Shown: positions 47,419 to 53,094 of the stretch, in pieces
Numbering within the stretch: position 1 is the stretch's first letter
Layout: every line of letters starts with the position of its first letter
Assembly (NCBI GenBank): GCA_028713655.1
Contig: JAQTNW010000005.1
Location: forward strand, 1-64,000
DNA from: Candidatus Methylacidiphilales bacterium
GTDB taxonomy: Bacteria > Verrucomicrobiota > Verrucomicrobiia > Methylacidiphilales > JAAUTS01
Length of the DNA stretch: 64,000 bases
Direction: 5' to 3'
Notes under the pieces: generated by a model
What the model was told of the DNA's origin: nothing
The model's input: the letters and a program-made list of their open reading frames with translations, nothing else
The model's database searches: none
Made by a program: the position numbers and the translations under genes

Positions 47419-48501
47419 TTATCCCGGGGGATTTTGGCGGTAAACCCAGACGGGTTCTTTCTCTCCAGCGTTGGCCTCCTCGATAAAGCGATCTATGATC
47501 TTGCGGTTGGGTGAAAGCGAGCAAACCGGATCGGTCGCGGCGGGATCACCGACGAGCAAGGCCGCCTGGCAGCGGCAGCCGCCATAGTCAATCTCGCGCT
47601 GGGGGCACTCACGGCAGGGCAACGGCATCCATTCCGTACCGCGGAATCGGTTAAAGCTGGCCGATTCATTCCAAATAGCCGCGAGACTTTGTTCCCGAAC
47701 ATTATCGAAAGAGAGGCCCGCGATGCTGCTCGCATTCGGGCAAGGTAAAACCTGCCCCATCGGATTGACCGTCAAGTAACGGCGGCCCCATCCCTGCATG
47801 CATGGTTTGGGACGATCTTCATAATAATCAGGCAGGACATAAAAAATATCCATTTTTCCCGCCAGCCGCGCTTTGGCAGCACGGCCCACCTCGATTGCTT
47901 CTTGAACCTGCCTGTGTGCGGGCAGCAGTTGGGGTTGGTTCAATTTTCCCCAGCCATAATACTGGACGTTTGCAAGTTCCAACCTCACCGCACCAAGTGA
48001 TTCCGCAAAACGGATAATCTCAGCCAGGCGCCCGATGTTAGCGCGATGCAGTACAACATTCAGACTAAGAGGCAATCCCGCCTCGCGAATACTTTGCACT
48101 GCATTGAGCTTCGAATCATGAGCTTTGCTCCCGGCAATGGCATTGGCCAGTGCCGGCTCATCAGCCTGAAAACTAATCTGCACTGAATCGAGCCCGGCGT
48201 CCTGCAGTTCCCTCGCGCGCGCAGCGGTCAGGCCGATTGCGCTCGTAATAAGGTTTGTATAGATCCCGAAATTGCGCGCCGCCCGAATCAACTCTGCCAG
48301 ATCTTTCCGGCCAAGCGGTTCACCTCCGGAGAGCCCGAGTTGCAGGACGCCCAGGGCGCCGGCTTCGGCGAATACGCGCTTCCACTCCCCGGTGGAAAGT
48401 TCCTGGCCGTCGGGATATTGCGCTGGATTGGAACAATAGGGGCAATGGAGCGGACACCGGTAGGTGAGTTCCGCCAGCAAGGCATAAGGCCGCTCTTTCA
48501 T
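47419..48501 (-). CDS. pqqE: PQQ biosynthesis radical SAM enzyme PqqE
   Basis: PqqE joins the Glu and Tyr side chains of PqqA, the first step of PQQ synthesis, with PqqD as chaperone. It has 360 residues. The radical-SAM cluster is in TYRCPLHCPYCSNP (about residues 13-26), followed by LSGGEPLGRKDL. The C-terminal SPASM region shows CMQGWGRR, CPNAS, CRECPQREIDYGGCRCQ and VCSLSP, giving ligands for auxiliary Fe-S clusters. The ATG overlaps the pqqD stop in an ATGA. Last gene of pqqABCDE. Confidence 0.95.
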   Translation of the reverse strand: MKERPYALLAELTYRCPLHCPYCSNPAQYPDGQELSTGEWKRVFAEAGALGVLQLGLSGGEPLGRKDLAELIRAARNFGIYTNLITSAIGLTAARARELQDAGLDSVQISFQADEPALANAIAGSKAHDSKLNAVQSIREAGLPLSLNVVLHRANIGRLAEIIRFAESLGAVRLELANVQYYGWGKLNQPQLLPAHRQVQEAIEVGRAAKARLAGKMDIFYVLPDYYEDRPKPCMQGWGRRYLTVNPMGQVLPCPNASSIAGLSFDNVREQSLAAIWNESASFNRFRGTEWMPLPCRECPQREIDYGGCRCQAALLVGDPAATDPVCSLSPNRKIIDRFIEEANAGEKEPVWVYRQNPPG

Positions 48502-48782
48502 GACGAAAAGACCATCAGGTTCCGTTGCTTGAGGTCGGCTAACGTTTCCAGCACATCGCGACGGAGCTCCTCTTCAGCCTCGTCATACTCTTCCTGCAGG
48601 CCGCGGATGATGCCTTCAATGGTAAGATCGCCCTGGCAACGACTGACGATCTCATGCGCCGTCTGGTTCAGGATCAGGATTCCTTCAGGATAAAGCAGCA
48701 CCGGGCTCCCGCTCACCTCGTCGATTTGCAAACGCACGCGTGGCGCCAGAGTTGGCCAGCTTTGTGGATCGAGATCATTCAT
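48498..48782 (-). CDS. pqqD: PQQ biosynthesis peptide chaperone PqqD
   Basis: PqqD binds the PqqA peptide and presents it to PqqE. It has 94 residues from ATG 48782 (MNDLDPQSWPTLAPRVRL); the longer reading to 48860 lies inside pqqC. The family pattern is complete: LAPRVRLQIDEVSGSPVLLY, then PEGILILNQTAHEIVSRC, then the ELRRDVLETLADLKQRNLM helix. Overlaps with pqqC and pqqE of four bases each mean coupled translation. Confidence 0.94.
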   Translation of the reverse strand: MNDLDPQSWPTLAPRVRLQIDEVSGSPVLLYPEGILILNQTAHEIVSRCQGDLTIEGIIRGLQEEYDEAEEELRRDVLETLADLKQRNLMVFSS

Positions 48783-49501
48783 GGGACGGAAGGTGTCGTA
48801 ACCGCTCCGGGGCCATATTTCAGGTGAATGCCATCCAGGATGGCCCAAAGCAGATCGCACTTGAAGATCAGCGCGCGCACGGCCTCGCGCTGAAGTTCCG
48901 CAGTATCACAATACTTAAGTGTAAGTGCCAGCGCACCATCGGAATCCTTGCGGGCCTGCGTCAGGCGGCGCTGGAAATAATCGAACCCCCAAGGCTTGAC
49001 CCACTTGTAGTTCACTTGAAAAGCTTCGAGCCTCTTGGCCATGAGATCGGGCGCGAACAACTCCGTCAGCGAGGAGGACATCGAGATGATCCAGGGTTTC
49101 TCGCGGCAAAAGTGGACATAGGCATCAACCGCAAAGCGCACAGATGGCGCCACATGGTCGCCTAACAACATTTCCTCACGTGGAATCCCGCAAGCCGCGC
49201 CCAGGCGGAGCCAAGCCTCGATTCCGCCCTCTTCACCCTGCGCGCCATCGTGCTCCACGATGCGGTACGTCCAGAGTCGGCGGATCTCATGCGAAGGGCA
49301 ATTCGAGAGGATGGCCGCGTCCTTGACTGGAATATTCTTTTGATAATAAAAGCGATTGATCACCCATCCCCGGATCGCTTCCGGCGCAAGCTGGCCGGTG
49401 TTCATCAGCAAATGAAAGGGATGCTTATCGTGGTAAGATCGGACGCCGATTTCCCTCAACTTGTTGATGAACGTATCGTGGTCCCAGAGAGCTTCGCTCA
49501 T
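48779..49501 (-). CDS. pqqC: PQQ synthase PqqC
   Basis: PqqC performs the last oxidation and ring closure to PQQ without metal. It has 240 residues. Family marks include YHDKHPFHLLMNTGQLAPEAI, then WVINRFYYQKNIPVKDAAIL, then GDHVAPSVRFAVDAYVHFCR, and SSLTELFAPDLM. The His and Arg residues of these blocks form the active site. It overlaps pqqB and pqqD in ATGA junctions. Confidence 0.95.
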   Translation of the reverse strand: MSEALWDHDTFINKLREIGVRSYHDKHPFHLLMNTGQLAPEAIRGWVINRFYYQKNIPVKDAAILSNCPSHEIRRLWTYRIVEHDGAQGEEGGIEAWLRLGAACGIPREEMLLGDHVAPSVRFAVDAYVHFCREKPWIISMSSSLTELFAPDLMAKRLEAFQVNYKWVKPWGFDYFQRRLTQARKDSDGALALTLKYCDTAELQREAVRALIFKCDLLWAILDGIHLKYGPGAVTTPSVP

Positions 49502-50406
49502 AAGGTAAACTCCATGCCATCCTGCCCGATTGTGACCCCGGCGGCCTCAACTTCCGCGCGCTCGGTGGAGCCAGGCTGTAAAATCGGATTGGTGTTGTTG
49601 ATGTGAAGAAAAATCTTATAACGCGCGCGCAGATTACGCAAGACATTCAAGCCATGCGTCTGAATGGGAAGATGCCCCATTTCCAGCGCTGTGCGCGATG
49701 TTCCTTTCACTCGTTTTAACTCGTCGTCGCACCAGAATGTGCCATCGAAGAGCACTGCATCCGCCTCCCCCAGCGCGGCAAGCAGGTCCGGCGTCAGGCA
49801 ACCCACATCCGGCGCGACGAGCAGTTTTCCTCCGGTCCGATCGTCCTTGATTTCATACGCAACGCTTTGCGCTCCATCCCCGGCATTTCGGGGAAAATAA
49901 AGGGGTGGCGACTGCGCAAGGGCAATAGCCCGATAGGACAAGCCGCTTGCCCTTCCATTTTTCGATGGTAAAGGCGAAAAATTGTCCCGTGGCGGCTCAT
50001 GCCACTGCAGGCCACAAAAAGCACCCAGCAGCGCCTCGATTCGAAGCCCCTCGACAAGGGTTTCACGCACGGCATGGGTGGCGTGAATCGTCAGGGCATC
50101 CCCTTCCCTCAACAGCAACAAGCCCAGCGCGTGATCGAGATCCGCATTTGTCAGCAGAACCGCTTCAATGGGGTTGAAGCGGAGGGCTGTTCCCTCCGGA
50201 TGAAATTTCGGAAAGGCTTCCACCTGGGCGCGCAAGTCGGGCGAAGCGTTGACAAGATACCAGCGGCCTCCATCGGCGGAAAAGGCGACCCCCGATTGAG
50301 TCAATGGCGGAATGCGCCCCTTTCTTGCCTCCTGGCAATTGGGGCAACGGCAATTCCACTGAGGTAATCCTCCTCCTGCGGCCGCGCCGAGAAGTCGTAC
50401 AAAAAT
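49498..50406 (-). CDS. pqqB: PQQ biosynthesis protein PqqB, predicted ATT start
   Basis: PqqB is a metallo-beta-lactamase-fold protein that oxidises a tyrosine intermediate in PQQ synthesis. The frame is open from just after a TGA at 50418-50416, and reads (ATT)FVRLLGAAAGGGLPQW, then the zinc motif NCRCPNC, then QSGVAFSADGGRWYLVNASP. The N-terminal block aligns with known PqqB starts (MxxRVLGxAAGGG). No ATG, GTG or TTG lies upstream of it in frame, but ATT at 50406 follows GAGGAG with a 5-base gap. With that start it is 302 residues, the family length. A TTG at 50304 would delete the zinc motif. Confidence 0.9.
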   Translation of the reverse strand: MFVRLLGAAAGGGLPQWNCRCPNCQEARKGRIPPLTQSGVAFSADGGRWYLVNASPDLRAQVEAFPKFHPEGTALRFNPIEAVLLTNADLDHALGLLLLREGDALTIHATHAVRETLVEGLRIEALLGAFCGLQWHEPPRDNFSPLPSKNGRASGLSYRAIALAQSPPLYFPRNAGDGAQSVAYEIKDDRTGGKLLVAPDVGCLTPDLLAALGEADAVLFDGTFWCDDELKRVKGTSRTALEMGHLPIQTHGLNVLRNLRARYKIFLHINNTNPILQPGSTERAEVEAAGVTIGQDGMEFTL

Positions 50407-50429
50407 ACTAACTCCTCAAGAAAGCTAAC

Positions 50430-50531
50430 TTAGGCCGTGGCGGAGTACGAGGTGCTCTCGAAAAAGATGGGGACTTCCTTGAGCGCGGGTTTGTTCCACG
50501 ATTTCTTGGTCTTCCTATTCATATTTTTCAT
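50430..50531 (-). CDS. pqqA: PQQ precursor peptide PqqA
   Basis: A peptide of 33 residues from ATG 50531. It reads MKNMNRKTKKSWNKPALKEV then PIFFESTSYSATA. The Glu25-x3-Tyr29 spacing is the conserved pair that becomes PQQ, and the W-x-KP-x(4,5) pattern before it matches PqqA peptides. It ends 23 bases before the pqqB ATT. It is slightly longer than the usual 22-29 residues because of a basic leader; the ATG at 50522 is an alternative start. Confidence 0.88.
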   Translation of the reverse strand: MKNMNRKTKKSWNKPALKEVPIFFESTSYSATA

Positions 50532-50639: not shown

Positions 50640-52841
50640 TTAAAATTCGTAGGTCAGGCCCGCATAAAAGCCGCGGCGATTGCCATATTTCACCGCCCCT
50701 TCCCCAATGCCAGTACCACTGTTCAGAACATAAACCTGGTCAAAAACATTGAGGACATCAAATCGTACCGTCAAATCTCCCGCACCCCATATCTTTTTGA
50801 ATGTGTGTCCAATGCCAAGATTCACCGGGTAATAGGATTGAAGCTTGTCCTGATTGGCGAATCCCGATCGAATTCCATCCCCATACAGAACGTCGCCGTG
50901 TATCGTGCTGTCCATCCAAGTGTAAGAAGCCCCTGCGGAGGCGGTATAAAACTGTTGCTGGTCAAAACGAACGTTATGGTTGGAAATGTAGGCCAGTTCA
51001 TCGGCACCGAATTCAAACTGGCTGGCAACGATATTCCTTGCCCAGGAATCCATTGCTGCGAAATTTCCGTAGGCGGAAAAGCCTTCATGGGTGTAATTCA
51101 CCGATAATTCCGCGCCATACATCGAGGCCGTGGCGTAATTGTAGGGCGAGCGGATATTGGCCGCGCCGAACTGTCCGTCATCGATCTGGTCTGTCGCCTG
51201 TTTGTAATAGCCGTCAACACCCACTTCCAGGCCGGGTAAAAAATGATGGGTCACCCCGGCATCAACATAGTGGGAGCGCTCGGCTTTGACGGGATTGTCA
51301 GTATCCAGATCGGCGGCATTGGTGGTGTTGTCGAACTGGCTGACCGTACCGGGTGATATATTCATCAATTGAGGCGGATCGAAGTAGCGCGCGTAACCCG
51401 CGTGGAAGGCCGTGTTTTTATCCACTTGGTAAACCGCATTGATGCGGGGACTGAGTTGATTTTCATCTGTGTAGGCTTCAACCTGCTCAAAGCGCAAGCC
51501 AAAATTGATCGTCAGTTGCCCGGTCACTTTCCATTCGTCCTGGATGTAAAAGGCAAAATCGTAGCCGCGTTTGAAATGGTCGTCCGTAATGGCATATGGG
51601 TCGCCCATGGGATTTCCGCTCGGATCCGTGTTATAAACCTGCGTACTATTGTGGGTGCCCGCGCCTTGGGTATCGCCTAGAAAGCCTGCCCGAATCGTAT
51701 GTGAATCACCCGCGTGATAGGTAAAATCGGCTTGGGCGCCATTGGTAAGAATATACTGGCTGACCCGGCCCGCCACTCCGCTGAAATAAAGATCGCCGTT
51801 CATATCGGGATTGAATAAAACCGAGCTGTAACGGTTCACCTGCGAAATTTGGAGGGAAAAATCGTCGATCGTTTGCTGATAAGCGATGAATCCGTAGTAG
51901 GTCTGCTCGTGTTGCGTTTCATTCAGGCTGCTCGAATCAACGGGCGTCGGAGCCGTGGTTGTCCCGCTGAAATCCAAGCTGGTAACCTGCCCAGGCGTAT
52001 TGGGAATCTGGTAATCGGCGGCGGAGCCGCTGAAAACAAAGCTCAAGCGCCCCGCATCCCCGAGCTGCCGGGAAACATAGGCAAAACCTTTATATTGGTT
52101 GGTCTCATCGTGGATGGCCACACTGCTGGAGGTCGGATTTTCCAGGCCAAGGCTGTCGTGTATGTAACTGCCCGTGAAATAAAAATCGGTGCCGCCCGAG
52201 GATCCCCCATAAGAAAAAGTGGGTTTCGCTGTGTCATAACTCCCGCCATAAAAACTGGCAGCTCCCCCATTCAGATTCGTTCCGGTTTTCGTTCGGATAT
52301 CAACGATGCCGTAGTTTCCTTCGGGATAATAAGCTGACAGTGCGCCCACTTTCGTCGTGACGCTCTGGACAAACCGGGTGTCGATGTCCTGGTCGAATCC
52401 GTTAATCCCGGAGGGCAGCAGTGTTCCATTGATATAATAGCGGTAATAGGGGTCCTCCCCGCGGAAATGGATTGATCCGTAGCTGTCATCGGAAACACCG
52501 GGCGTGTGTGCGAGAATCTCGTTGAATTTGGCGCCTTGCCCCTGTCCAATCGTATTGATTTGTTGCTGATCCAGGGTGTACATGCTCGTCCCTGCGCTCA
52601 AATCGATCTGCTGACGATTCGACTCGCCCGGTCCCAGCGCAGTGGCCGTGACAATAATGGGAGGCAATTGGATCGGTTCCCCGGGTGGAACTGTCGAGGC
52701 GCTCGGAGTGGTATCTGTTTCTTTGCTTTTTATTTCGGATTTATTCTGAACCGCCATTGAAGCAGTGTCCGTGATCTGGGCGTTAAGTCCCCTAATGCTG
52801 AGGCCCAGAAAAAGGAGAATGAGCAAAGATATCCCGTTCAT
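50640..52841 (-). CDS. TonB-dependent outer-membrane receptor
   Basis: A protein of 733 residues from ATG 52841 (MNGISLLILLFLGLSIRGLNAQ), with signal peptide. The plug domain (about residues 90-200) shows VTATALGPGES, the ILAHTPGVSDDSYGSIHFRG stretch and PYYRYYINGTLLPSG. The rest is a 22-stranded barrel in pattern (alternating aromatic strands) and ends in the C-terminal aromatic FYAGLTYEF. The substrate is unknown. It lies 108 bases before pqqA on the same strand, so uptake or release of PQQ or of a lanthanide or other cofactor for PQQ enzymes is a reasonable guess (inference). Confidence 0.88.
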   Translation of the reverse strand: MNGISLLILLFLGLSIRGLNAQITDTASMAVQNKSEIKSKETDTTPSASTVPPGEPIQLPPIIVTATALGPGESNRQQIDLSAGTSMYTLDQQQINTIGQGQGAKFNEILAHTPGVSDDSYGSIHFRGEDPYYRYYINGTLLPSGINGFDQDIDTRFVQSVTTKVGALSAYYPEGNYGIVDIRTKTGTNLNGGAASFYGGSYDTAKPTFSYGGSSGGTDFYFTGSYIHDSLGLENPTSSSVAIHDETNQYKGFAYVSRQLGDAGRLSFVFSGSAADYQIPNTPGQVTSLDFSGTTTAPTPVDSSSLNETQHEQTYYGFIAYQQTIDDFSLQISQVNRYSSVLFNPDMNGDLYFSGVAGRVSQYILTNGAQADFTYHAGDSHTIRAGFLGDTQGAGTHNSTQVYNTDPSGNPMGDPYAITDDHFKRGYDFAFYIQDEWKVTGQLTINFGLRFEQVEAYTDENQLSPRINAVYQVDKNTAFHAGYARYFDPPQLMNISPGTVSQFDNTTNAADLDTDNPVKAERSHYVDAGVTHHFLPGLEVGVDGYYKQATDQIDDGQFGAANIRSPYNYATASMYGAELSVNYTHEGFSAYGNFAAMDSWARNIVASQFEFGADELAYISNHNVRFDQQQFYTASAGASYTWMDSTIHGDVLYGDGIRSGFANQDKLQSYYPVNLGIGHTFKKIWGAGDLTVRFDVLNVFDQVYVLNSGTGIGEGAVKYGNRRGFYAGLTYEF

Positions 52842-52912
52842 GATTAATCCCGGTCTATTTTTCTCGTTTTGTGTTAATGATTTGGCCGAATTTGTCCTGC
52901 CAGCAGCACCCG

Positions 52913-53094
52913 TCACGCCGCGTGAAACACCGGATTAAGCGCTTCGGCCAATACATCCAGCTCTTTCAATTCGGGCTCCGTGATCGACTTGAACTTCATG
53001 GCCAGATCCAGCGCAATGGGAAGTGTCATCGGCCAGGGTTGTATTGGAAACTCACGGCCCACGAAAGTCAATCCCTGCCTGATACCCGGGTTTT
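52913..53094 (-). pseudogene. Remnant of a coding sequence (C-terminal piece)
   Basis: Within the 374-base gap between the receptor gene and kdsD, the minus strand holds an open stretch of about 60 codons with no start. It reads GIRQGLTFVGREFPIQPWPM then TLPIALDLAMKFKSITEPEL then KELDVLAEALNPVFHAA and stops at 52913. It looks like the conserved end of an enzyme (amphipathic final helices), perhaps an oxidoreductase, but I cannot name the family. The stop codon before it lies near 53095. The rest of the gap shows nothing clear. Confidence 0.4.

Follow-up and report, generated by a model that had tools for sequence, protein, structure and literature searches.

The infC gene is the textbook example of an AUU-initiated gene autoregulated by IF3. 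Like infC of E. coli, Streptomyces, and S. aureus, which starts at AUU, AUC, or AUA, the pqqB gene described here displays a near-cognate AUH codon behind a Shine–Dalgarno (SD) sequence, conserved across species; the two differ in that infC controls the synthesis of IF3 itself, whereas PqqB is a metabolic enzyme not known to take part in translation. In Streptomyces, sigR possesses a GTC start codon that is repressed by IF3, follows a AGGAGGTG ribosome-binding site, and has a stoichiometric role (PMC5472188). The two genes share a conserved non-standard start with a strong ribosome-binding site, and sigR sets stoichiometry inside its operon; however, the codons are AUU/AUC here versus GTC/GTT, sigR is a regulator gene, and its start was experimentally proven, whereas that of pqqB is deduced from sequence comparison. 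The S. aureus genes cvfC1 (AUU) and ccpN (AUA), with extended SDs, were reported to reach, in poor medium, approximately 10% of the output obtained with AUG (PMC13009471). These conserved AUU/AUA-type starts with an extended SD resemble that of pqqB, although the genes and the phylum differ, the S. aureus starts were mapped by Ribo-Ret, and the output figure belongs to cvfC1 and ccpN. Likewise, the AUU start of E. coli pcnB (Binns and Masters 2002, as cited in PMC13009471) limits an enzyme gene, albeit for a different enzyme in a different phylum. Few bacterial genes are documented to have a conserved near-cognate start, most of them regulators or infC, and no report on pqqB start codons was found in a literature search that was weak on subscription journals. 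The pqqB start is thus an addition to a kind already known, unusually well conserved and lying in a cofactor pathway.

The gene is located in the window, a 64,000-nucleotide stretch of a Candidatus Methylacidiphilales genome, within a pqqABCDE cluster in which pqqC, pqqD, and pqqE were identified by NCBIfam profiles and pqqA by motif (Table 1), the profile search having returned no NCBIfam match for the 33-aa PqqA. The pqqB product matched TIGR02108 over its full length (338.8 bits against a cut-off of 245; profile positions 2–298 of 298). Directly 5′ of pqqA, a TonB-dependent receptor gene was found (50640–52916, minus strand), whose match to PqqU was weak (27.8 bits; cut-off 1200).

Table 1. 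Features of the pqq cluster in the window, and infC of the same genome.
Feature	Position	Strand	Basis or remark
pqqA, substrate peptide gene	50430..50531	-	ORF MKNMNRKTKKSWNKPALKEVPIFFESTSYSATA with E-x3-Y; stop TAA 50432-50430, 23 nt before ATT
In-frame TGA, upstream limit of pqqB frame	50416..50418	-	sequence
SD GAGGAG	50412..50417	-	5-nt spacer 50411-50407 to ATT; anti-SD duplex -8.8 kcal/mol
ATT initiation codon, pqqB (almost certain)	50404..50406	-	Met1 alignment with 3jxp/4z5y; ATT/ATC in 7 other species
pqqB coding sequence from ATT	49498..50406	-	302 aa plus stop; stop TGA 49500-49498
pqqC	48779..49501	-	TIGR02111, 300.7 bits; ATG overlaps pqqB stop (ATGA)
pqqD	48498..48782	-	TIGR03859, 73.8 bits; from ATG overlapping pqqC stop (ATGA)
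pqqE	47419..48501	-	TIGR02109, 494.4 bits; ATG overlaps pqqD stop (ATGA)
infC, this genome	G000:C16:59559-59768; L083/L113	-	ATT behind CAGGAG; CAGGAGATCCGCT-ATT

The sequence-only reading had placed the pqqB start at an ATT following GAGGAG by five bases, in a frame closed by an upstream TGA and encoding a protein of 302 aa, and each of these elements was confirmed. As it had also claimed, no ATG, GTG, or TTG occurs between the TGA and the NCRCPNC zinc motif, the earliest in-frame standard codon being the TTG at 50304, which lies 34 codons past the ATT and behind that motif. The 16S 3′ end GGATCACCTCCTTT found in this genome represents a normal 16S tail. Furthermore, Met1 of the PqqB structures 3jxp and 4z5y aligned with query residue 4, namely the ATT codon. 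A run of approximately 38 codons without a standard start would be expected by chance at about 15% (our own estimate, from 3/61 codons); the missing standard start is thus unremarkable in itself, and the decision falls to the relatives.

PqqB relatives were sought in the order, the class, the phylum, and two further orders; hereafter, G and L codes denote genomes and loci, G000 being this genome, and f and g codes denote families and genus groups. An ATT or ATC codon was retained at the pqqB start behind an SD in eight species, that is, this one and seven others with 48–62% identity, which fall in six families (f1, f9, f56, f53, f44, and f17) and are represented mostly by draft, metagenome-like assemblies. 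The nearest PqqB (62% identity) is that of G033, which belongs to the same order but to a different family; its start region is AGGAGG-TCGAT-ATC and lacks a standard start; ATC is also found in G813, and ATT in G219, G703, G764, G750, and G749, each with a fitting SD. No usable standard start was present in G000, G033, G219, G703, G764, G750, or G749. A sequence error, an indel, and standard codons at this site in relatives had been named beforehand as evidence against an AUU start; the opposite was found, the closest relatives having ATT or ATC, and what raises the case above chance is that ATT/ATC recurs in one alignment column of other species, preceded by an SD. Comparison of the AUU/AUC species further gave pN/pS values of 0.10–0.45 over codons 2–33, indicating purifying selection, and mostly no coding signature in the seven codons 5′ of the ATT. 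The AUU-start reading held against the relatives, the alternative frames, the signs of purifying selection, the spacing of the SD, and the Met1 position, and AUU/AUC is almost certainly the start codon of pqqB. A gene finder that accepts only ATG/GTG/TTG would overlook this start, and such a call here would begin pqqB at TTG 50304 with loss of the zinc motif.

Other start arrangements were observed outside these species. ATG or GTG occupies the pqqB start in the Methylacidiphilaceae-type (f8), Alphaproteobacteria, Planctomycetota, Gemmatimonadota, and Acidobacteriota rows. Genus g153, which belongs to the family of G764, G750, and G749 and was represented by about 25 loci, has a UUG without an SD one codon before the same ATT/ATC, and family f36 shows the order UUG-CUN or GUG-CUG. 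At L039, L048–L069, and L072 (g153; not L052), the start is TTG without exception, never ATG or GTG, followed by the conserved ATT/ATC. In the single-contig genome G029 (f8; L015, L019), pqqB is broken across two frames near query residue 253, and the draft genome G798 carries two pqqB loci (L051/L073), reflecting either two copies or contamination.

In trees of 50 and then 53 PqqB proteins, from which the start residue was excluded, all 21 sampled proteins without ATG/GTG at Met1 formed one clade (support 98/92 and 98/99, respectively), the sisters of which (L038, L044, and L175) all start with ATG. As AUU/AUC is scattered through this clade and UUG is nested within it, AUU/AUC may be ancestral there, a reading of sequences for which the tree gives no proof of direction.

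The pairing energies with the anti-SD were −12.1 to −5.0 kcal/mol for the AUU/AUC pqqB starts (median about −9.6; weakest, G813 at −5.0), compared with a median of about −3.3 kcal/mol for the standard pqqB starts (Mann–Whitney p = 5e-5, which is indicative only because the rows are related) and 0.0 for the class with an NTG upstream. Such strong SDs would also be expected if AUU/AUC were the start in a neutral or tolerated state, for which the SD compensates in full and which has no regulatory meaning; compensation between start codon and SD has been documented for GUG/UUG (PMC5622118), and a strong SD may offset the weak codon here, in which case net pqqB output would not be low. Neutrality appears rather unlikely, however, since a single point change would give AUG and yet AUG was seen in 0 of the 21 clade members across several families, the switch from AUG to AUU was recorded for just 1 in 61,358 ancestral AUG starts (PMC5622118), and the UUG subgroup is likewise weak and without an SD. 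We consider it likely that pqqB both starts at AUU/AUC and is tuned down by this codon, with less assurance than for the codon itself.

Control might instead be exerted mainly by an mRNA hairpin masking the SD, with AUU being secondary. In G000, G033, and G219, a CUUCUC-type sequence located a few codons downstream is able to pair with the SD, whose unpaired probability is 0.14–0.28; however, this pairing is absent from some AUU/AUC species, and the folding z-scores were not significant across the set (median +0.55), on which ground a conserved SD-masking hairpin was rejected and this account is judged improbable.

Slightly less probable again is a pqqB start at a standard codon elsewhere, whether upstream within pqqA, at a TTG inside pqqB, or out of frame with a later frameshift. 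In-frame GTG/TTG codons do occur upstream in G219 and G703, only at 14–22 codons and inside the pqqA region; in G813, a GTG precedes the ATC by two codons, with an SD spacing that suits the ATC and not the GTG; the downstream TTG is available in this genome, and in the g153 sister group, where the UUG directly precedes the same Ile codon, part of the clade has a standard start. Against these candidates, the stretch from the stop to the conserved block is free of in-frame standard starts in G000, G033, G764, G750, and G749. The internal starts, at species-variable codons 13–67, lie downstream of the conserved GxAAxGGG block, and those of G000, G033, G219, G764, and G750 downstream of the zinc motif as well; they were rejected because conserved motifs would be lost. 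The frameshift route was likewise rejected, as no other-frame start within 90 nt that is open through the ATT was found in G000, G033, or G219.

A sequencing or assembly error masking an ATG, or decay of the gene, has a negligible probability: although the genome is a 90-contig draft in which an argF-like gene shows an apparent one-base frame break, the same pattern appears in separate assemblies of eight species, the seven others leading us to reject an error at the pqqB start, and the pqqB frame is unbroken and shows purifying selection. In the same genome, an ornithine-carbamoyltransferase-like gene (L173, bases 80–970; G000:C22) has its sole plausible ATG out of frame with the conserved frame and, shortly after the start, a T6 run, attributable to an assembly indel, slippage, or decay.

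Under the preferred reading, in which pqqB starts at AUU/AUC and is thereby tuned down, ordinary fMet initiation would take place at AUU (AUC in the two relatives), positioned by the strong SD directly after pqqA. IF3 discriminates against starts other than AUG/GUG/UUG (PMC5472188), and because of this selection against near-cognate codons, initiation at pqqB would be inefficient. The weak start would keep PqqB well below PqqA, and since ATGA overlaps link pqqB/C, C/D, and D/E (the pqqB/C overlap being found in six of the eight species with AUU/AUC), coupling would probably carry the lowered output to PqqC, PqqD, and PqqE, such that all four enzymes would be lowered relative to PqqA. PQQ synthesis consumes PqqA as its peptide substrate, and the weak pqqB start probably acts as a gate on all of the enzyme genes, the enzymes being kept under the PqqA level. 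In Methylosinus trichosporium, pqqA mRNA was found at about 40 times the level of pqqB mRNA (PMC3615186), and work cited in PMC10112286 describes PQQ production as driven by pqqB or pqqF, not pqqA, which is consistent with control at the pqqB start.

By analogy with infC and sigR, IF3 may plausibly be linked to pqqB and the PQQ level. That a large Verrucomicrobiota clade holds PQQ synthesis under IF3-dependent translational control, via an AUU/AUC gate on coupled pqqBCDE, is a tentative proposal that we regard as possible rather than probable. If true, cofactor supply would track the initiation-fidelity state of the cell, this control replacing an intercistronic hairpin that possibly limits pqqB in relatives. 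Across f8, G077, and one planctomycete, most relatives with an AUG start have a pqqA–pqqB gap of 68–101 nt with strong hairpins of −30 to −51 kcal/mol, whereas the gap here is 23 nt without a strong hairpin; this contrast between hairpin and weak start tracks phylogeny and is thus only suggestive, not independent evidence. The hairpins at L004–L014 and L042 (f8, G077) are strong and terminator-like, and possibly limit read-through into pqqB. The retention of AUU/AUC by a cofactor-pathway enzyme over several families suggests that selection can keep weak starts to set pathway stoichiometry.

Near-cognate starts were also scanned over half of this genome (AUU/AUC/AUA; 1.66 Mb, 1068 ORFs). The combination of an SD with ATT/ATC/ATA was overall not more frequent than by chance, and the only convincing SD-backed starts were those of infC and pqqB, both at family-correct positions. 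General AUU use in the genome was rejected on this basis, by a weak method; as the scan is insensitive, pqqB itself receiving a negative codon score before its first standard start, infC and pqqB constitute a lower bound. The infC start of this genome resembles that of E. coli infC; it is ATT in G110 too, and probably CTG in the g153 genomes.
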